Below are positions 3,411 through 20,437 of a stretch of 24,402 nt of DNA, in pieces. The notes under the pieces were generated by a model. The model saw only the letters and a program-made list of their open reading frames with translations, made no database searches and was not told the DNA's origin. A program made the translations under genes and the position numbers. Source of the stretch: a virus; the IMG/VR virus record IMGVR_UViG_3300024229_000033, positions 1-24,402 of that record, one strand, 5' to 3'. Positions within the stretch are counted from its first letter, which is position 1. Every line of letters starts with the position of its first letter.

Positions 3411-3971
3411 CTATCGTTTTGCGATATTAAATGCTAATGAAGACTTGAATTTATTATTGAAAAAATCAAACTCATCATCTTGGAAAGCTACCCTGTAAGC
3501 AACTTCTTTACAAGTATCTATGAATATCAACCTATCTGCTAATAATAAACTTCTTACCGACTTGTTTGTAGTGTCAGTAAAAAATTCTCTTCTCTTAACA
3601 GATACTGCTAATCTATAGTCTATTGATGTATTGTACACCTCGTAGGTTTCTGAGAACACCGCTTTGTTTACGGCTGCCAACATTCTGTACGAAGTAACAT
3701 CATCGTATATAACATCTCCTATCTCCCAATAAAGACCTGTGGTAGTGCTTACACTTGATGGTACATTTTCATACACCTCATCGTCAAACTGAAAAGTTCT
3801 AGCCGTCTCATCGGTGCAATAAGCATACACACCCACGGTATCGCTTACAGGTATATAAATAACATCACCTTCGTCAAATGAACCACTACCCAATGTTATA
3901 ACACCGTTGGAAACAGTACCTGAAAAAGATTGGTTTATAGCAGGGTTATATAAAAATTTATAATCACTCAT
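3411..3971 (-). CDS. Hypothetical tail-region protein (186 aa)
   Basis: Not recognised. The protein is acidic and beta-rich: residues 1-100 contain repeated short Gly/Val/Tyr strands (SNGVITLGSGSFDEGDVIYI, VGVYAYCTDETARTFQFDDE). The C-terminal third is more basic and helical, ending FNIAKR. The start codon overlaps the stop of the tape measure gene (TAATG arrangement), implying translational coupling. The next gene, the 893-residue tail protein, begins 1 bp later. Its place directly after the tape measure gene fits a distal-tail or tail-tip component, which is inference from synteny. Confidence 0.65.
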   Translation of the reverse strand: MSDYKFLYNPAINQSFSGTVSNGVITLGSGSFDEGDVIYIPVSDTVGVYAYCTDETARTFQFDDEVYENVPSSVSTTTGLYWEIGDVIYDDVTSYRMLAAVNKAVFSETYEVYNTSIDYRLAVSVKRREFFTDTTNKSVRSLLLADRLIFIDTCKEVAYRVAFQDDEFDFFNNKFKSSLAFNIAKR

Positions 3972-6900
3972 TATATTCTATCGTTTCTATCTCTTAATCT
4001 ACGCTCTGTATCGTTGCTTCTAAGGTCTTTGCTAGATACAAAGGCTCTCATAGGCTTACTTGTCTGTATAGCGGTAGAGACTGTAGCCTCAGCAATAGCT
4101 TTTAGGTAATCTACACTTTCGTTAGCTTGTGCTGTAACTAAACCTCCGTTAGCAAACATATGCTTACCCGACATAGGTCTTGTCTTGTAAGAGTCGTTTA
4201 TTTTTTCTAACAGACCCTTGTGCATAGCGGTAGCTCGTTTATTTACAACAAACTCACCACCTTCCATTTCGTAACCTCCTTGACCCTGAACACTAAACGG
4301 CACACCACCCTCAGAGTGGCTTGGTCCATTGACTATACCCCCTTTAGCAAACCGCTTAGGGACAAACTGCTTACTATTGATAGCTGCTATTTCAGCTCCA
4401 AACGATGCCACAGCTAATGCTGCAGATATTTTTGCTTTCAATGCTGTAGTTATAGGTTCACCTGCTTCACCTCTCTTAAACATATTAGGAATAATAGATG
4501 CTAAAGCAACGGCTAAATCTGTAGTAGCATCTGTTCTTTCTTGTTTTTTCTGAGATTCAAATATCTTTTTGTTTATAGCGTTTTCCTTGGCTAACTGCGC
4601 TCTCTGTAATTCAATTTGCTTTGTTTTAAACTGAGACTCTGTAATTAACTGATTATCTAACTGAGACTTTAAAATGTCGCTTTCTATGTCTGCATTTCTT
4701 TTTACAGATTCCAATCTAGCTTTTTCTTGATTCTCATAATTCTCTTGCCTTACTTCAGAGAAGTTATCTATAGCATCTGCAGTTTTTGTAAGAGCATCAA
4801 TGATAACATCCTCAAAGCTAAACAAATCTTTATTCTTTTTTATGAAGTTTATAGTTTCTAGTAGACTCTTTGTTGTTAAGTCCATTGTTCTTTTTGCAGC
4901 CTTTGGAAGACCTACGGAAACTTCTTCTGCAGCACCTTGAAACACTTTCTTTAAACCCCTTACAAAATCAGAGTTTTCTCCATATAATTTTTCTGCCTCT
5001 GAAATAATATCTTCTGCATTTCCAAACAATGCTGTAAGCAAGTCTACCTGTAGCAAGAATTGCTCATCAGATATTCCCTCTACTAAATCTTCTTTAATTA
5101 GTTTCTCCTGCTCTTTTATAGCTTCTATAGCGTCTTTTAATTCATCTTTTAATCTTTTTTGTTCTTCTTTTGTTCTTGTTTCTTTATTCTTTGCAATAGC
5201 GGCTTCACTATTTTCTAGGTTTCTAACTGATGCTAAAAGCTCCTCAAATAAAGCAATCCTTTTTTCAAGAACAGTAATTTCCTCAATACTTAATCCTCTT
5301 TGATTCTCTCTTGTGCTTTGCAATCTAGTTAGTTCTGATTCAAGACCTTTAGTCACTCTTAGACTTTCTTCATCAGTCATCACACCTTCTTTGGCTGTAG
5401 CTACTAATTTTTGAGTCATTTCAACAGCAGCTCCATATTGCTCATTTGTTGCTAACTCTAGTATTCTTTGCTCTCTTAAAACTTTGGCTCTTTCGACACT
5501 CATTTTTATGAGTTCATCCAAGAATCTACCTGCATCTTTCATTGAGCCGTTTGACTTGGTTTGCAAAAATTCACTTAGCCTGAGCTGAGGGTTTAATTTC
5601 TTTTGAGCTTTAAATTGTTTTTCAACTATTTTTAATTGCATTGAAGTTAAATCGCCTCCTTCTCTAAGTATTTGGAATAATGCCTCAGAACCTGCTTCTT
5701 GCTCTTTTTGCGTGGTATTAAACTGTATCAAAGATGTAGTCAAATCATCGAAAGACTTTTCACCTTGTTCTGATGCGTTAGACAAAAACTTAAAAGCCCT
5801 TGCCTGACCTGCAATCCTAGGGTCTAGTCTTTCAATAAGTTCTATAAAAAATTCAGTTTGTGTAATGTAATTACCAATACTAATAGATGCTTTATTATAT
5901 GCTGAAGACAACAAGTCTATCTGACCCTGAGTAGAAGACATCTGAACTGCATTTGCTCTTAGCAACCTTGTACTATCGTTAACCTCTCCGTTCAAGTCGT
6001 CAAACTCATCAATAGTGTCTGCAAGGATAACAGCAGCACCTGCACCTCTTTGACCAAATATTTCAAAAGCCTCAGCCGCATCTAAATTGTTTTTAGCTAA
6101 CTGTTCTACAAAGTCTCTAAAAGGTATTCCTTCTTTAGCTGCTTCACTAAGAACTCTCCTAAGACCTGTACCTGCCCTAGATGCTTTCAAACCGTTATTA
6201 GTAAGCAACCCTAAGAAAGTAGCTGTTTCATCGAAGGTTAATCCTACCTGACTTGCTAATGGACCAACATACTGTAACGCTGTACCTAGGTCTGTTAGTG
6301 TTAAGGCACTCTCGTTTACAGCACCTACTATTACGTTTGAAAATCTACTAGCTTCTGCGGCGGTTTGGTTGAATTGGTTCAGAGCCTTCTTTAGAGCTTC
6401 GGCAACTCCCCCAGGCTCTTCACCTAGTGCCTGAGCTAAGAGAGCCACAGGTTTTGTTAACTGACCAATTTCTTCTGCGCTAGAACCTAACTTACCTAAT
6501 TGTTTTTGAAGTTCTGCAATCTGTATGGCTGTGAAAGAAGTAGTACCTGCTACATCAAACACAACATTTTCTAAAGATGCTAACTCTTCCTTTGTTAATG
6601 CTGCAACAGCTCTAAGTTCAGCCATTGCCTTTTCAAAAGCTATAGCTCTTTTTGCTGACTTTACAAATAGCTCATTAAGTAAAGCTGTAGCACCTTGTAT
6701 GAGTTTATAGGCAATACCTAATCTACCAAGTGTTTTTATAGTTTTTCCTAAGCTTCCAAGAAACCCTGTGTTAGATTTAGTAGATTTTTGTGTGGCTGCT
6801 GAATATCTTTTTTGAGCATTAGAGGCTTGGTCAATTAACTTTCTATGTCTTGGAAGTCTATCTTCTAATTTCCCTTGACTTTGAGCTAATTTTTTTGAAG

Positions 6901-7060
6901 CATCAGCAGCTTGTTGTTCTAGTCTATTTTTTTCTTTAAGTCTCTTATTGTAAGCATCAGTACCTTTGTCAAGCTGACTTAACTGCTTTTGTACAGCCTG
7001 TAGTCTGTCAATATACTTGTTTAGAATCTCTATGTTTTTTCTGTTCTCAGATAGTGCCAT
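3971..7060 (-). CDS. Phage tail tape measure protein (TP901 family type)
   Basis: 1029 residues. It sets tail length and is packed in the tail lumen. Residues 1-95 are a Lys/Gln-rich coiled coil. Residues 142-320 carry the typical tape-measure core: FEKAMAELRAVAALTKEEL, then VVFDVAGTTSFTAIQIAELQ, ALTLTDLGTALQYVG, and TFLGLLTNNGLKASRAGTGL. A long charged helical region follows (about 420-860). Near the C-terminus (about 905-945) is a Gly-rich motif found in many tape measure proteins, FAKGGIVNGPSHSEGG then YEMEGGEFVVNKRAT. There is a hydrophobic stretch near residues 108-130. The start codon shares a base with the stop of the upstream gene. The length would correspond to a tail of roughly 150 nm at 1.5 angstrom per residue (inference). 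Confidence 0.95.
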   Translation of the reverse strand: MALSENRKNIEILNKYIDRLQAVQKQLSQLDKGTDAYNKRLKEKNRLEQQAADASKKLAQSQGKLEDRLPRHRKLIDQASNAQKRYSAATQKSTKSNTGFLGSLGKTIKTLGRLGIAYKLIQGATALLNELFVKSAKRAIAFEKAMAELRAVAALTKEELASLENVVFDVAGTTSFTAIQIAELQKQLGKLGSSAEEIGQLTKPVALLAQALGEEPGGVAEALKKALNQFNQTAAEASRFSNVIVGAVNESALTLTDLGTALQYVGPLASQVGLTFDETATFLGLLTNNGLKASRAGTGLRRVLSEAAKEGIPFRDFVEQLAKNNLDAAEAFEIFGQRGAGAAVILADTIDEFDDLNGEVNDSTRLLRANAVQMSSTQGQIDLLSSAYNKASISIGNYITQTEFFIELIERLDPRIAGQARAFKFLSNASEQGEKSFDDLTTSLIQFNTTQKEQEAGSEALFQILREGGDLTSMQLKIVEKQFKAQKKLNPQLRLSEFLQTKSNGSMKDAGRFLDELIKMSVERAKVLREQRILELATNEQYGAAVEMTQKLVATAKEGVMTDEESLRVTKGLESELTRLQSTRENQRGLSIEEITVLEKRIALFEELLASVRNLENSEAAIAKNKETRTKEEQKRLKDELKDAIEAIKEQEKLIKEDLVEGISDEQFLLQVDLLTALFGNAEDIISEAEKLYGENSDFVRGLKKVFQGAAEEVSVGLPKAAKRTMDLTTKSLLETINFIKKNKDLFSFEDVIIDALTKTADAIDNFSEVRQENYENQEKARLESVKRNADIESDILKSQLDNQLITESQFKTKQIELQRAQLAKENAINKKIFESQKKQERTDATTDLAVALASIIPNMFKRGEAGEPITTALKAKISAALAVASFGAEIAAINSKQFVPKRFAKGGIVNGPSHSEGGVPFSVQGQGGYEMEGGEFVVNKRATAMHKGLLEKINDSYKTRPMSGKHMFANGGLVTAQANESVDYLKAIAEATVSTAIQTSKPMRAFVSSKDLRSNDTERRLRDRNDRI

Positions 7061-7710
7061 TATCTACTGAATAATTTTGTAAAGCGAACCATTGTTTGTT
7101 CCATAAACAAGTTGGTCAGCCTATCGTTAATGTTTTGTTGAGCCTTAGCTAGTGTAGCTTCAACGCCTCTGTTCTTGTAATAAAAGGGATTATCAAAATC
7201 ATATCTCTTTCTTAAACCCTTTCTTTGTATAGACCTCTTAATAACAAATGCCAACTTACTTACCTCATGGTCTTTTGACTTGTCTAAAGCCTTTCCACCG
7301 ATTTTAAAGTTAGCCTTACTATTAATAATCCATCCTTTTAATCTGCTGAAACCTTCCTCGCTTACATTCCATCCACCTGAAGGAGAACGCTTAGTAAGCC
7401 TGAAGTATTTTTCAGCCACACCGAATTGTATGTTTGTTCTTATTGTTATACTGCTAGGTATGCCTTGAGACATATTATATACCCTTACAGACACAGCCTT
7501 TTTTCCGTCTTCACGAGCTAAGAACAAATCATCTCTCCTAGGTGTCAAAGAGCCTGACTCATTAGGGTTGGATAGTCCTCCTGAAACGACTAGACCGTTG
7601 CCCTTTATCTTGCCTACTATTGCATTTATAATACCTGCTTTCCTAAACTGCTTGGCTATTTCTGCAACGGCAATGAGCCTGATTCTATTTTGATACTGCT
7701 TCCTAGTCAT
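7060..7710 (-). CDS. Hypothetical tail/connector-region protein (216 aa)
   Basis: Basic protein without a recognised motif. It contains a beta-rich middle (AVSVRVYNMSQGIPSSITIR) and a helical C-terminus (QQNINDRLTNLFMEQTMVRF) like those of tail-completion and minor tail proteins. It overlaps the upstream gene by 8 bp and its stop touches the tape measure start, so it belongs to the same transcription and translation unit. A tail completion or head-tail joining role is suggested only by its place just before the tape measure gene. Confidence 0.65.
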   Translation of the reverse strand: MTRKQYQNRIRLIAVAEIAKQFRKAGIINAIVGKIKGNGLVVSGGLSNPNESGSLTPRRDDLFLAREDGKKAVSVRVYNMSQGIPSSITIRTNIQFGVAEKYFRLTKRSPSGGWNVSEEGFSRLKGWIINSKANFKIGGKALDKSKDHEVSKLAFVIKRSIQRKGLRKRYDFDNPFYYKNRGVEATLAKAQQNINDRLTNLFMEQTMVRFTKLFSR

Positions 7711-8157: not shown

Positions 8158-8871
8158 TTACAAGTTACGCATAGCTTGAGCCTGTCTTTGTTCTGCAGCT
8201 TCTATCTTACTTTTCTGTGCCAAGAAACTCATCTCAGGCAGTACGGTAGGCATAGGTAACATATATATCTCGTTGTACTTGGTGATGTCCTCATTGCCTA
8301 GTTTCCTGACTATGCTGTACCAATACCATTGTTGGTTAAACAACATCTGAGAGTTTTTATTTTCTACATCTTCCTCATCTGCATCCTCATCATCTTCAGA
8401 TGGCTCATAAAACACTCCTGCAAAATCTTCAAACAAGGTCTTGTTTCTGTTTTCTATAAACTCATTTAACAAAGAGTAAACTTCCCTCACATCTGAATCT
8501 AGTATATACTCTTGATTTTGCTTCTCATCTTCTATGCTTTCATTGTCAAATGTTTCGTGATGTAGCGGACGTACAATTAGTTTGCATATCTCAAGGTCTA
8601 TTAAGTGGTCAGGTAGTTTAGTCTTGCCTGTGATTATCTGTTCTAACATTATGAATTGTCCCAATACCAAGTCTTCTACCCTTCTATACACCTTTCTTTC
8701 TGAACAAATAGAATCAGGATTCTTCATCTTTTCATTCAAAGGGTACGTCTCTATAGAGTCTTTTATAAATTGTAATTTTTCTAACGGTTTCAATGTATCT
8801 GCATAATCAATAGGCTTACCACCTTTATTGATTGTATTCATAACATCAATGTGCTGTCTAAGTGTAATCAT
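8158..8871 (-). CDS. Hypothetical protein, possible tail assembly chaperone (237 aa)
   Basis: The start codon overlaps the TerL stop by 4 bp (ATGA), so translation is likely coupled. The protein is mostly helical and very acidic, with a low-complexity run EPSEDDEDADEEDVEN near residues 150-168. The C-terminal part is the most conserved-looking: FNQQWYWYSIVRKLGNEDI then YNEIYMLPMPTVLPEMSFLA and a helical Gln/Ala/Arg end. Such Trp-rich helical segments occur in phage tail assembly chaperones, which usually sit a little upstream of the tape measure gene as this one does. The function is inference. Confidence 0.6.
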   Translation of the reverse strand: MITLRQHIDVMNTINKGGKPIDYADTLKPLEKLQFIKDSIETYPLNEKMKNPDSICSERKVYRRVEDLVLGQFIMLEQIITGKTKLPDHLIDLEICKLIVRPLHHETFDNESIEDEKQNQEYILDSDVREVYSLLNEFIENRNKTLFEDFAGVFYEPSEDDEDADEEDVENKNSQMLFNQQWYWYSIVRKLGNEDITKYNEIYMLPMPTVLPEMSFLAQKSKIEAAEQRQAQAMRNL

Positions 8872-10118
8872 AAAAACATTGTTACTCCACCGTCCTGCTC
8901 TTCTTTAGCACAGTAGGCAGTAATTGCTAGACTCATAACCATATCATCGTGCTTACCATCCGTGTTGCTAAACTGAAGGTTTCCTGTGATTGGGTTACGC
9001 TTACTCTTAAAATCGTAAAGCTCCTTTATCAATTCTTCATTGTTTGGAATTTTGATGTTACCATCCTCAAACTGCTTGATGAGATTTCTGATAATCTCAG
9101 GCTTTGTTTTCGCTGAGGTAATAAAAGGAATCATCTTGTATAATCTCTCATCGTCTGTAAGGTCGTCAAACAACAGGTCGTTGTTATTGACCTCAAAGTA
9201 ACAGGCTGATAGCTTATCATCGTGCTTGAGGTAAAAGCTTTTTATCCTTTCTTTAAACTCCTCATAGTCCATACCCTCTTCCTTATAGTTGAACCTGTGT
9301 ATGTCTATGATTTCATTGTGTTCGTTCATTGCAGTCATTACGGTATAATCCTGAGCGACACCAATATCCATACCGATATAAACTCTCTCGTAAGGGGTGT
9401 TTAGTTGCGGTACTACCGACTCTTCGATATTACTGAATAGTGCATTAGCACTTACAGGTTTGCATAAATACTCTTGGTCGAACTGTGCCTTGGTCATACT
9501 TTTCTTTACCCCTGCTACCGTTCTCTCCACATCCCTATCATCAAGGTCTAGGTAAGTCTTCTTGATAGACTTAATCTCTTCCCAATTTGATTTACTCTGT
9601 CCGTCCTTGTATCTATCGAAGTACCAATTAGGACCGTTGAACGTACTTGACATAACTACCCTACCTTTTGTCCTAGTAACCATAGGAAGGAGTACCTCGT
9701 TGATAAAGTCTAGCTTCATATATGCCGCCTCATCCAAGTATATAAAGTCGAGGGTCGCCCCACGAAGATTATCCCCTGAGTCAGCAGAGCGAAACTTAAT
9801 AAAAGAACCGTTATAAAGATATATTTCGTTATGCTTCCTGTCATACCTCTTGATTATTTTATCCCAAACCTCTTGGTGGTTTGAGAACATAGCCTCTATA
9901 TCCTTCATCACCTTATTGGCTTGGTCTTGGATAGGAGACACCCAAAACATCCTGTGCTTTGGATTATTCAATGCCCTCATCAAAATATCATTCTGCATAA
10001 AGAAAGTCTTTCCTGTTTGCCTTCCTGCAACGATACAACTGATAAATGGCTTGTCTTCGTGTACGAGCCGATGAAAGTCCTTTTGCGGCTCAGTAGGATT
10101 GTATAGCTTAATCTGCAT
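8868..10118 (-). CDS. terL: Terminase large subunit (ATPase-nuclease of DNA packaging)
   Basis: 416 residues with both expected domains. ATPase: Walker A AGRQTGKT at 31-38, Walker B FIYLDE at 125-130 (catalytic E130), coupling motif SST at 157-159. RNase H-like nuclease: MDIGVAQDYT with D251, YFEV with E309, and GKHDDMVMS with D391/D392, giving the usual acidic triad. It translocates genomic DNA into the prohead and cuts it. The start lies directly after the small terminase gene. Length is normal for the family. The packaging strategy (cos, pac or other) cannot be told by eye. Confidence 0.96.
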   Translation of the reverse strand: MQIKLYNPTEPQKDFHRLVHEDKPFISCIVAGRQTGKTFFMQNDILMRALNNPKHRMFWVSPIQDQANKVMKDIEAMFSNHQEVWDKIIKRYDRKHNEIYLYNGSFIKFRSADSGDNLRGATLDFIYLDEAAYMKLDFINEVLLPMVTRTKGRVVMSSTFNGPNWYFDRYKDGQSKSNWEEIKSIKKTYLDLDDRDVERTVAGVKKSMTKAQFDQEYLCKPVSANALFSNIEESVVPQLNTPYERVYIGMDIGVAQDYTVMTAMNEHNEIIDIHRFNYKEEGMDYEEFKERIKSFYLKHDDKLSACYFEVNNNDLLFDDLTDDERLYKMIPFITSAKTKPEIIRNLIKQFEDGNIKIPNNEELIKELYDFKSKRNPITGNLQFSNTDGKHDDMVMSLAITAYCAKEEQDGGVTMFL

Positions 10119-11110: not shown

Positions 11111-11179
11111 CTTGCTAATATTCTTAGCATTCTAATATTTTTAGCAATTTTGCGCCTTGCTAATATTTTTAGTATTCTG
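11111..11179. repeat. Three direct repeats of the TAATATTYTTAGYATT type
   Basis: Copies start near 11111 (CTTGCTAATATTCTTAGCAT), 11132 (CTAATATTTTTAGCAATTTT) and 11156 (CTTGCTAATATTTTTAGTAT). The first and third agree over about 22 of 24 positions and the middle one is shorter. They may be protein-binding sites in the control region. No gene overlaps them. Confidence 0.5.
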
Positions 11180-11342: not shown

Positions 11343-11822
11343 GGTATTTTATACCTAGTGAAAAAAGGTTAAGTACCTCATTATCAATGAGTTAGCAAAT
11401 ACAGCTATTTTTGATTGACTAGTATTTTATACCTAGCCATTAGGTATTTATACCTATGACAAAGTTAAGTGCCTGATACTCAGCTACTTAGCTATTTTTA
11501 CCTTGTTTAGAATCATTCTAAATTACAAGGGGTTACCCTGTTTTATGGATTATTAGTTGTTATAACATCTAATACGATTGAGATAGTTGTTATAACAAAT
11601 AACAGGATTGAGATAGTTGTTATAACATATATCTAGCCAATACAGGGCACAAAGCTAACTGCCTGATAATCAAGTAGTTAGCCTTATATACATATTATAT
11701 AAAAAAAAGTGCTAACTGCCTGATACTCAGATAGTTACAATTATTTTGATTTTTTTTTACCTGTAACTCATTGATACTCAGACAGTTACAAATTAATTTT
11801 CAAATTGAGTATTTTATACTAA
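11343..11822. repeat. Four GTATTTTATACC-type palindromic sites
   Basis: Sites at 11343-11358, 11421-11436, 11441-11456 and 11807-11822 share GTATTT(T)ATAC followed in three cases by CTA. The copy at 11441-11456 is a perfect TAGGTAT-TT-ATACCTA dyad. The middle two are separated by 4 bp. Such two-fold symmetric sites are typical of dimeric repressor operators, which is inference. They are interleaved with the 29-bp palindrome array. Confidence 0.55.
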
Positions 11823-11901
11823 TTGACTTTGTAAGTCCCTGATACTCAGATAGTTAGCTCATTCTATTTTGCCGTAAGTCCCTGATACTCAGGTAGTTAG
11901 A
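11368..11901. repeat. Array of seven 29-bp imperfect palindromes (iteron- or operator-like)
   Basis: Copies at 11368-11396, 11464-11492, 11654-11682, 11711-11739, 11762-11790, 11830-11858 and 11873-11901. The centre is CTGATACTCAG (CTGA-TAC-TCAG), flanked by TAACT or TAAGT on the left and AGTTA on the right, so each copy is an imperfect dyad. All copies have the same orientation judged by the asymmetric flanks. Start-to-start distances are irregular (96, 190, 57, 51, 68 and 43 bp), denser towards the right. The first copy is the most diverged (CTCATTATCAATGAG). Plausible roles are iterons of a replication origin, an operator array, or repeated hairpins in a transcript. No gene overlaps it. 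Confidence 0.85.
11555..11627. repeat. Three TGTTATAACA iterons with exact 30-bp period
   Basis: The 13-bp sequence AGTTGTTATAACA occurs at 11555-11567, 11585-11597 and 11615-11627, exactly 30 bp apart. It contains the perfect palindrome TGTTATAACA. The intervening bases end in GATTGAGAT in both complete units. Thirty bp is close to three helical turns, placing the sites on one DNA face, as expected for cooperative protein binding at an origin or operator. They lie inside the gap between the second and third 29-bp palindromes. Confidence 0.75.
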
Positions 11902-11909
11902 CCGATTTG

Positions 11910-12390
11910 CACAGTCCAAAAAGCCGCCGCATATTTGTACCAACGAAAACGGATAACGAAAAACAGACACAGCAGGGAGGGCGACCCGAAGACATAGCAA
12001 ACGCCACTACAGCGACAAGCCCCGAAAGGCTAGAGGCGGGACAAACCCAATTCGAGAGCGAAAGCGAAGCAGTCGAAGTAGCAACAAAGCCCCAATCATA
12101 TGTAAAACGGGGGGCGGCAGTTGGAGCACTTGACGTGCTTAGGGATAGCCCTAAGCAATGAGCCTGACCAACGAAAGCCCCCCAAAGTAACTGCGATATC
12201 GGGCTTATCTGAAACCCTGCGAGGGCGGAAATTGGTAGGCTATCCGACCAACGAAAGCGGCAAGGGGGGCAAGTGTTGCGAAATGTAGAGAGCACCGCCA
12301 CAGGGGGGCGGCTAATACCCTGTTATCCTGTTAACTAGCTAGGAGACCTAAGAAGGGCAAGTGCGGAGCGAGGCCGCCCCTAGCATCTAA
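11910..12390 (+). ncRNA. Candidate large structured non-coding RNA (class not recognised)
   Basis: A block visibly richer in G+C than all its surroundings, with A-rich loops when read on the plus strand. Complementary arms seen directly: AGCCGCC 11922-11928 with GGCGGCT 12307-12313 (a possible closing stem); CGCC near 12002 with GGCG near 12035, enclosing AGCC-CCGAAA-GGCT; TTCGA with TCGAA near 12050-12077, enclosing GCGAAAGC; GCCCC near 12089 with GGGGGC near 12108; a perfect 9-bp stem 12136-12144/12149-12157 with loop ATAG; AGCCTgACC near 12161 with GGTAGGCT near 12233; GCCCCCC near 12177 with GGGGGGC near 12264; CCCT-GCG-AGGG near 12214; and GCTAGG near 12337 with CCTAGC near 12379, enclosing GCGG/CCGC. 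The motif GACCAACGAAAGC occurs twice, about 80 nt apart. Open frames on both strands here look non-protein-like. Exact ends are uncertain. Confidence 0.55.
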
Positions 12391-12406
12391 TTTTAATAAC
12401 TATACT

Positions 12407-12547
12407 ATGAATCCTTTTGACGAACTATTCAAAATTGAATACCAATTAAAAACCCTTTGCCCGTTTGACAATCACAACGAAATAATGAGGTTAAACGAAA
12501 TCAAGGCAAAAACTCAGGAACAAATAAACAAACTTTTTGAACTTTAA
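12407..12547 (+). CDS. Hypothetical small protein (46 aa)
   Basis: ATG at 12407 and TAA at 12547 give MNPFDELFKIEYQLKTL followed by a charged helical C-terminus ending KTQEQINKLFEL. It is the first plus-strand gene after the non-coding locus, and the next gene follows after 12 bp across the shared AAAAACTAGAAA leader. Its composition is like that of the neighbouring small genes. No function recognised. Confidence 0.55.
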   Translation: MNPFDELFKIEYQLKTLCPFDNHNEIMRLNEIKAKTQEQINKLFEL

Positions 12548-12795: not shown

Positions 12796-12814
12796 GGGGG
12801 GCGCAAAGCCCCCC
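12796..12814 (+). other. G6C hairpin between small genes, copy 1
   Basis: GGGGGGC (12796-12802) pairs with GCCCCCC (12808-12814) around loop GCAAA. It looks like a terminator stem but has no T-run after it: ATAAACTAAAAACTAG follows. It may therefore act in mRNA processing, stability or partial attenuation. The same element recurs at 13137-13155. Confidence 0.65.
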
Positions 12815-12821
12815 ATAAACT

Positions 12822-12838
12822 AAAAACTAGAAATTATG
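12822..12838 (+). promoter_or_regulatory. Shared translation leader AAAAACTAGAAA, copy 2
   Basis: Identical to copy 1 over all 17 bases including the ATG of the 95-aa gene, and placed 7 bp after the G6C hairpin. Confidence 0.6.
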
Positions 12839-13123
12839 AATACTCACGAATTACCAAATTACAGACAATTCAAAGTAACTTTTTTAGGACCTACAAACCA
12901 TAGAGGCGCACGGGTTAAAATTACTGAGCCAAAAAGATTTGTAGACGGAAAAACAGTCTCAGTTACTTTGTCCTATGATTACGCAATAGGCGATATTCAA
13001 CAACAAGCGATAAACCACTTAGACGGCTTAGGCTTTAAATTAATGGCTAGATGCTCAGAAACAAATTCTTACACAATACTTTGTAATAATTGGGGCTTGG
13101 ACTTTATAGAACTGACAGCATAA
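12836..13123 (+). CDS. Hypothetical protein (95 aa)
   Basis: Alpha/beta small protein with a beta-rich N-terminal half (YRQFKVTFLGPTNHRGARVK) and a helix containing AIGDIQQQAINHLDGLGFKL, then a C-terminal strand. No recognised family. It has the leader AAAAACTAGAAA at its start and a G6C hairpin on each side, so it looks like one cassette of a repeated layout. Confidence 0.65.
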   Translation: MNTHELPNYRQFKVTFLGPTNHRGARVKITEPKRFVDGKTVSVTLSYDYAIGDIQQQAINHLDGLGFKLMARCSETNSYTILCNNWGLDFIELTA

Positions 13124-13136
13124 CAAATAATAACAG

Positions 13137-13155
13137 GGGGGGCGCAAAGCCCCCC
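13137..13155 (+). other. G6C hairpin between small genes, copy 2
   Basis: GGGGGGC (13137-13143) pairs with GCCCCCC (13149-13155), loop GCAAA. Again no T-run follows. The flanks (AACAG before, AATAACTAAAAACTAG after) match copy 1, so hairpin plus leader behave as one repeated intergenic unit. Confidence 0.65.
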
Positions 13156-13162
13156 AATAACT

Positions 13163-13179
13163 AAAAACTAGAAATAATG
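13163..13179 (+). promoter_or_regulatory. Shared translation leader AAAAACTAGAAA, copy 3
   Basis: AAAAACTAGAAATAATG, one base different from copies 1 and 2, ending in the ATG of the metzincin-like gene. Confidence 0.6.
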
Positions 13180-13602: not shown

Positions 13603-13749
13603 AAAACAGAAAATAAAATACTTTTGGCAATATCGAGCGCAACCGCTATCTTTGGAGCTGCAGGATTGGCAGCAACCAATGAAACGAGCTACGCAATAAT
13701 AATATTAATGAGCCTTGTAGGGGCTTTAGTATCAACCTTAGAAGAATAG
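13600..13749 (+). CDS. Small membrane protein (49 aa)
   Basis: ATG at 13600 and TAG at 13749. After a short basic head (MKTENK) come two hydrophobic segments, ILLAISSATAIFGAAGLAA and YAIIILMSLVGALVS, separated by a polar turn (TNETS), ending LEE. This predicts a two-helix membrane hairpin. Function unknown: it is small enough for a holin-like protein, but no lysis genes are next to it and it lies among early-type genes. The start is supported by the fourth AAAAACTAGAAA leader. Confidence 0.6.
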   Translation: MKTENKILLAISSATAIFGAAGLAATNETSYAIIILMSLVGALVSTLEE

Positions 13750-20404: not shown

Positions 20405-20437
20405 ATATAAAAAGGGGGCTACGCCCCCTTTTTATAT
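20405..20437 (+). terminator. Intrinsic terminator after the recombination unit
   Basis: ATATAAAAAGGGGGC (20405-20419) pairs over 15 bp with 20423-20437 around loop TAC, with a run of five T in the 3' arm. The symmetric A and T runs make it a bidirectional-looking rho-independent terminator. It ends the unit begun at the promoter near 18113. Confidence 0.85.

Follow-up and report, generated by a model that had tools for sequence, protein, structure and literature searches.

The block at positions 11910–12390 of the phage record analysed here is very probably a structured leader RNA whose end module resembles the DUF2693-FD RNA. The position of this leader, its non-coding nature, its plus-strand covariation and its homology are shown below. 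The material is an IMG/VR virus record of 24,402 bases (uncultured phage), which is referred to as the window over its whole length.

Genomic context of the leader

The block is located between a leftward structural operon and a rightward early operon, and it heads the latter. The leftward operon includes, on the minus strand, the genes for the terminase large subunit (8868–10118) and the tape measure (3971–7060). The rightward operon on the plus strand extends to approximately 24 kb and contains sigma-like, Erf, exonuclease and helicase genes at 17–22 kb. An intrinsic-terminator-like hairpin with a U run lies inside it at 20410–20433 (plus strand). The first early ORF, encoding 46 aa on the plus strand (12407–12547), begins 19 nt past the 3′ module of the leader. 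Two identical hairpins, GGGGGGCGCAAAGCCCCCC, at 12796–12814 and 13137–13155 precede the ORFs at 12836 and 13177, respectively. The DUF2693 RNA model (RF02956) gave 25 bits at 13093–13168, outside the block, and did not reach its gathering score of 81.3 bits.

A preliminary description of the window had noted that the block is richer in G+C than the rest and has no credible protein frame, and both statements hold. Its G+C content is 54.3%, compared with 38.0% for the whole window; of all 480-nt stretches (mean 0.379, sd 0.036), the one starting at 11901 is the richest. For the reading frames of the block, Pfam gave no match and tblastn against the fetched loci no relative. Complementary 7-mer arms occur 15 times in the block, against 5.3 ± 3.2 in shuffles. 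The global folding energy is not below that of shuffles (z −0.99), and 18 of 100 shuffles are equally low. The A-rich unpaired parts, which had been taken as a sign of structure, are an effect of composition (A content of unpaired bases 0.52, against 0.545 in shuffles). Since neither folding energy nor A-richness is informative, the case for structure from the single sequence is weak and comparison was required. A BLASTN search with the block among 50,697 phage records gave no match, and scanning the window against Rfam with relaxed thresholds yielded chance matches only.

A candidate early promoter of the Bacteroidota type, TTTG-N20-CATATTTG, was found by pattern matching at 11906–11937 on the plus strand. 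The pattern TTTG-N18-22-[TC]ANNTTTG has only two matches in the 24-kb window, this one among them. It corresponds to the Bacteroidota promoter consensus TTTG/TANNTTTG (−33/−7 pattern) (PMC6847099, PMC9723704). The −7 box has its final G at position −5 (PMC6847099), and the transcript of the window would accordingly start near 11942, at most approximately 465 nt from the first ORF. With this start, the arm 11922–11928, which lies in the promoter spacer, would be absent from the transcript. The long-range stem described between 11922–11928 and 12307–12313 thus has exactly complementary arms, but its first arm would not be transcribed. A further promoter with the full Bacteroidota consensus, TTTG-N20-TATCTTTG, is present at 13623–13654 within the early operon.

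Upstream of the candidate early promoter, six 25-bp imperfect palindromes, TAA[CG]TnnCTGAnnnTCAGnnA[CG]TTA (no strand assigned), are located between 11466 and 11899, starting at 11466, 11656, 11713, 11764, 11832 and 11875. This pattern occurs nowhere else in the window and is also present in several relatives found through TerL, the sister phages L016 and L024 having seven and six copies, respectively. Of the copies in these two phages, two lie within the transcribed leader. The array probably represents operators or other binding sites of a phage regulator.

Conserved modules of the leader and their relatives

The 3′ module occupies positions 12336–12388 on the plus strand. Its outer helix (12338–12343/12379–12384) encloses two hairpins and is followed by CUA. 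The first hairpin, CCU-AAGA-AGG (12347–12356), is followed by the linker GCAA. The second, GCGG-AGCGAGG-CCGC (12363–12377), carries the conserved loop AGCGA and is separated from the outer 3′ strand by a single unpaired C. Three loci among the TerL relatives are similar to the window at 12338–12396. The Rfam model RF02926 (DUF2693-FD RNA) matches the sister phages L026 and L033 with 38.3–38.4 bits (E ~1e-5), six bits under its gathering score of 44.5 bits. A search of the short stretch in the window gave no match to this model at E-values as high as 10, and the gathering score was not reached. Fold patterns added further phages, including Bacteroides prophages and L146. A loose-pattern scan for the 3′ domain was also tried, and its matches were coincidences in coding sequence. 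The covariance model R1 was built from the DUF2693-FD RNA relatives, with the window left out. R1 finds the window at 12336–12388 with 47 bits (E=4.6e-11).

In a MAFFT alignment of ten sequences, made independently of structure, 95.6% of cells are paired, 12 of 14 pairs show double changes, and the covariation score was reached by no shuffle. The model-based alignment of 14 phage sequences, which is fitted to the structure, has 97.3% of cells paired and double changes in 13 of 14 pairs, and its covariation score was reached by none of 500 shuffles. The modules include G-U pairs and are in sense orientation relative to the early genes. The nested 3′ domain proposed at 12337–12384 in the preliminary description is therefore real, being supported by the R1 match and by covariation.

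The module shares with the DUF2693-FD RNA the three-helix plan, with an outer helix around two hairpins, and the setting in a phage early operon. The conserved GA...GGCAA and AGCGAGA of RF02926 correspond to GGGCAA and AGCGAGG in the window, with one loop base changed. The window copy differs in a one-base bulge in the last hairpin, in a first hairpin of 3 bp and in being missed by the Rfam model. Since it falls under the gathering score, it is classed as a diverged relative of RF02926 and not as a curated member.

The leaders of the window, L024, L016, L044, L067, L033, L026 and L146 end in such a module, that of L016 being weak and that of L044 recognised by eye only. In phages other than those of Bacteroides, 14 module copies have the next start codon 1–35 nt downstream (mostly 14–35 nt); the stop codon ahead of the module frequently lies just 4–10 nt upstream. 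Intergenic copies within the operon lie 17–35 nt ahead of a start codon in L024, L044 and L067, and L044 and L067 hold several copies. In L024, the leader is followed by a module copy (20 bits), a 115-aa ORF, a second module copy and an ORF which, from comparison of the translations, is related to the first early ORF of the window. In the window, the leader directly adjoins its single 3′ module, and the L024-related ORF follows. An L024-like layout could turn into that of the window if the ORF flanked by two module copies were lost.

Among 395 Bacteroidota genomes, R1 matches were found in the centre genome only, and of 151 genomes from the Bacteroides family the broader model R3 has matches in 4. 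From these counts, the element appears to travel on mobile elements rather than to be a host gene. A weak DUF2693-FD-like match is present on the minus strand of the window at 11121–11069, ahead of the leftward operon, with GGAUUGACC, CAA and AGCGAGA. A pair of the nutL/nutR type through this site was considered but is not claimed: its E-value went from 0.001 with R1 to 0.32 with R3, and its helix mismatches are not repaired in the relative L003. The match may be the remnant of a second site or due to chance.

The 5′ module is located at 11980–12061 on the plus strand. It consists of a stem GGCG/CGCC with a loop ending in CAUAGCA, a hairpin GCC-CCGAAA-GGC, the purine linker AGAGG, a hairpin GGG/CCC and CAAUUC. 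The leaders of L024, L016 and L044 have the same succession: a hairpin with a loop ending in CAUAGCA is followed by AAGC and a CGAAA hairpin, and a purine linker then leads to a further small hairpin and CAAUUC. The model R2 was made from these three leaders, with the window left out. Its top match in the window is 11980–12061, with 22.8 bits and E=0.002 (E=4.3e-5 within the block), these E-values being approximate within a factor of ~5. In 0.8 Mb of other loci, R2 matches up to E=3 only its three source sequences. Six of ten pairs are changed on both sides, in an alignment of four sequences fitted to the model. The nhmmer search with the sequence of the 5′ module alone was not significant for the window (E 2.4), and the structure-aware model was needed. 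The 5′ module is an additional motif outside Rfam.

The perfect 9-bp hairpin with an AUAG loop at 12136–12157 (plus strand) and the two copies of the 13-mer GACCAACGAAAGC, at 12166–12178 and 12246–12258 (plus strand), are present as first described. No homologue of the hairpin was found, and a perfect hairpin of at least 9 bp arises in 2% of shuffles. CCAAC of the first 13-mer copy may pair with an adjacent upstream GUUGG, and CCAA of the second with an adjacent upstream UUGG. A scan with GACCAACGAAAGC and its flanks gave 26 loci, of which none resembles the block region over a longer stretch. For the middle 270 nt no homologue was detected, and searches based on TerL and on the early genes gave no close relative spanning it. 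The middle of the leader is fast-evolving.

The large structured RNA proposed in the preliminary description thus stands for the plus-strand modules, which are backed by covariation (13 of 14 pairs in the 3′ module, 6 of 10 in the 5′ module) and by two models from which the window had been left out. No evidence was obtained that all 470 nt form one fold, and the block is better understood as the leader of the early mRNA. It is new in its 5′ module, but its 3′ module is related to an Rfam family, which became visible only through the sister phages, the window itself giving chance matches.

Several sister phages carry other RNA structures. In L008, L009, L031, L043, L045 and L069, a different structured leader is found at the same locus, 1.6–1.9 kb upstream of TerL. 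This second leader type has hairpins UCGC/GCGA, CGCC/GGCG and GUGGUGACCAC, followed by AACGGAC and a long closing stem, and its stems covary by eye. It gave no gathering-level Rfam match in L043, L045 and L069 and none at E<1 in L031. L007 contains three pistol ribozymes above the Rfam cut-off at 7175–7241, 6682–6744 and 6290–6355 (minus strand). Twin hairpins with a common apical part (CGAGUUUACGCACUCG or UGAGUUUCCGCGCUCG) and a 3-nt bulge occur in L146 (2200–2270) and L033 (8140–8080, minus strand). Their lower stems differ yet are complementary, and they resemble paired protein-binding sites. The 38.8-kb relative IMGVR_UViG_3300046167_000577 (L019/L108) has a leader of just ~290 nt (L108 915–1215). 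Its ends overlap by ~340 nt, and the contig is therefore probably complete, being either circular or terminally redundant.

Association of the 3′ module with boxA

In Bacteroides prophages, GTTCTTTGAMA or GCTCTTTGACA is found 7–9 nt (approximately 8 nt) after the last position of the model. A boxA follows the module in seven loci (L140, L141, L142, L157, L149, L166 and L189), of which L149 and L166 are identical in sequence at this place. Its versions are GTTCTTTGACAT, GCTCTTTGACAA or GTTCTTTGAAAT. L188 has a weaker ACCTTTGACTT at this place, and L147 has no boxA there. Most of the Bacteroidota 16S rRNA leaders fetched contain AGTTCTTTGAAA, AGTTCTTTGACA or close variants. The boxA after the module of the Bacteroides prophages is the same as that of the 16S leaders of the same host group. 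In these prophages, the next ORF is usually 230–420 nt past the module. Together with NusB and S10, boxA forms the core of rRNA antitermination (PMC4807359, PMC10250234).

BoxA-like sites are also present in the leaders of L146 (AGTTCTTTGAAA), L026 (AGTACTTTGACA) and L033 (CGTTATTTGACT), approximately 290–315 nt upstream of the module. The site of L146 qualifies as a boxA, and those of L026 and L033 nearly do so. The sequence GTTTCTTTGAC in L024 and L007 was first taken as a −7 box; it may be a boxA, a promoter or both. The block of the window contains no boxA, its best match differing at 4 of 12 positions.

In the Bacteroides phage BS-TP2, the module is located after the DUF2693 gene and one more gene, at the start of a rightward operon, and adjoins a Peptidase_S24-type repressor gene. 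This is the place of nutR and putR in lambdoid phages.

Possible function of the leader

We tentatively propose, by analogy, that the leader acts in cis in transcription antitermination, like the nut, put and rrn leaders. This reading is favoured because of the position of the leader, the boxA link of the module and the long operon with its internal terminator. The rightward early mRNA starting near 11942 would contain the 5′ module, the middle, the 3′ module and then the first ORF. On emerging from RNA polymerase, the leader would act on the transcribing complex and modify elongation, either directly, as HK022 put does, or through Nus factors, as nut and the rRNA leaders do. Transcription would thereby pass the terminators of the 12-kb early operon. 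Since the window itself has no boxA, we infer this mechanism from its relatives.

The module copies just before start codons make a role in translation or processing a close rival. The 3′ module would then be an intercistronic or 5′-UTR element, serving as a binding site or cleavage signal by which the next gene is controlled in its translation, stability or processing; the remaining leader would protect the 5′ end of the early mRNA. This is quite conceivable, though we hold it with less than even confidence. The 14 copies outside Bacteroides are near the next start codon and often near the preceding stop, several copies per operon stand ahead of different genes, and the intergenic copies of L024, L044 and L067 fit such a role as well as antitermination, or better. 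The simple hairpins at 12796–12814 and 13137–13155 of the window are at equivalent places. However, the Bacteroides prophages have a boxA next to the module and their ORF far downstream, and a gene-specific switch is difficult to reconcile with a loop that is strictly conserved ahead of unrelated genes. The antitermination and intercistronic roles could also be combined.

The block had been compared with GOLLD and ROOL, and a large trans-acting ornate RNA of this kind would be an early-promoter transcript that folds as one body. The block is indeed phage-borne, GC-rich and non-coding, with its own promoter and many arms, and structured leaders of the second type occur at the same locus in sister phages. 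A ROOL example has 659 nt and GOLLD often exceeds 800 nt, both often near tRNA islands (PMC12286853), whereas the block has at most 450 nt, neither tRNA nor tRNA island in the window and no Rfam covariance-model match. Its folding energy is unremarkable, its modules are found apart and at variable spacing in relatives, the stem proposed to close it extends into the promoter, and the RNA enters an ORF 19 nt on. The resemblance found no support in these comparisons, and we consider such an RNA very unlikely. Just as hard to sustain, and in our view most improbable, is a DNA element, with palindromes and GC-rich block forming an origin, packaging or operator region in which most RNA folding is incidental. 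Six palindromes adjoin the block, and the divergent-operon junction lies beside the terminase genes; however, the palindromes are outside the block, and the modules covary as RNA, contain G-U pairs and are oriented in the same direction as the early genes.

Returning to the antitermination reading, one parallel is HK022 put, a short two-hairpin RNA after an early promoter (PMC9378689), with putR ~270 nt past the start site (PMC9378689). In the window, two hairpins lie downstream of a candidate early promoter from which their transcription is predicted. No match to put in sequence or fold was shown, and the hairpins of the window are enclosed by an outer helix. Compared with the boxA/boxB elements of nut and rRNA leaders (PMC10250234, PMC4807359), the Bacteroides relatives couple the fold with a boxA identical to that of the host, whereas the window has no recognisable boxA. 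In contrast to the Bacteroides copies, the window module is the 3′ end of a 450-nt leader and is not placed ahead of a boxA. Bacteroidota phages might even share a widespread antitermination system in which DUF2693-FD-like RNAs serve as the recognition element, either on their own, as put does, or combined with boxA and a leader that evolves fast; the window would then be a boxA-less version acting directly on RNA polymerase. We regard this broader generalisation, drawn by analogy, as doubtful.

None of the papers found that name DUF2693 has a title on the DUF2693-FD RNA, and the functional link between this fold and antitermination is new, as far as the searches show. The analysis widens the range of an Rfam family without functional characterisation, which now includes marine phages besides Bacteroides prophages. 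It places the DUF2693-FD-like fold at the end of early leaders that are long and structured, and ties the fold to boxA. An orphan RNA family thereby gains a directly testable function, and a first candidate is obtained for the control of transcription elongation by Bacteroidota phages.
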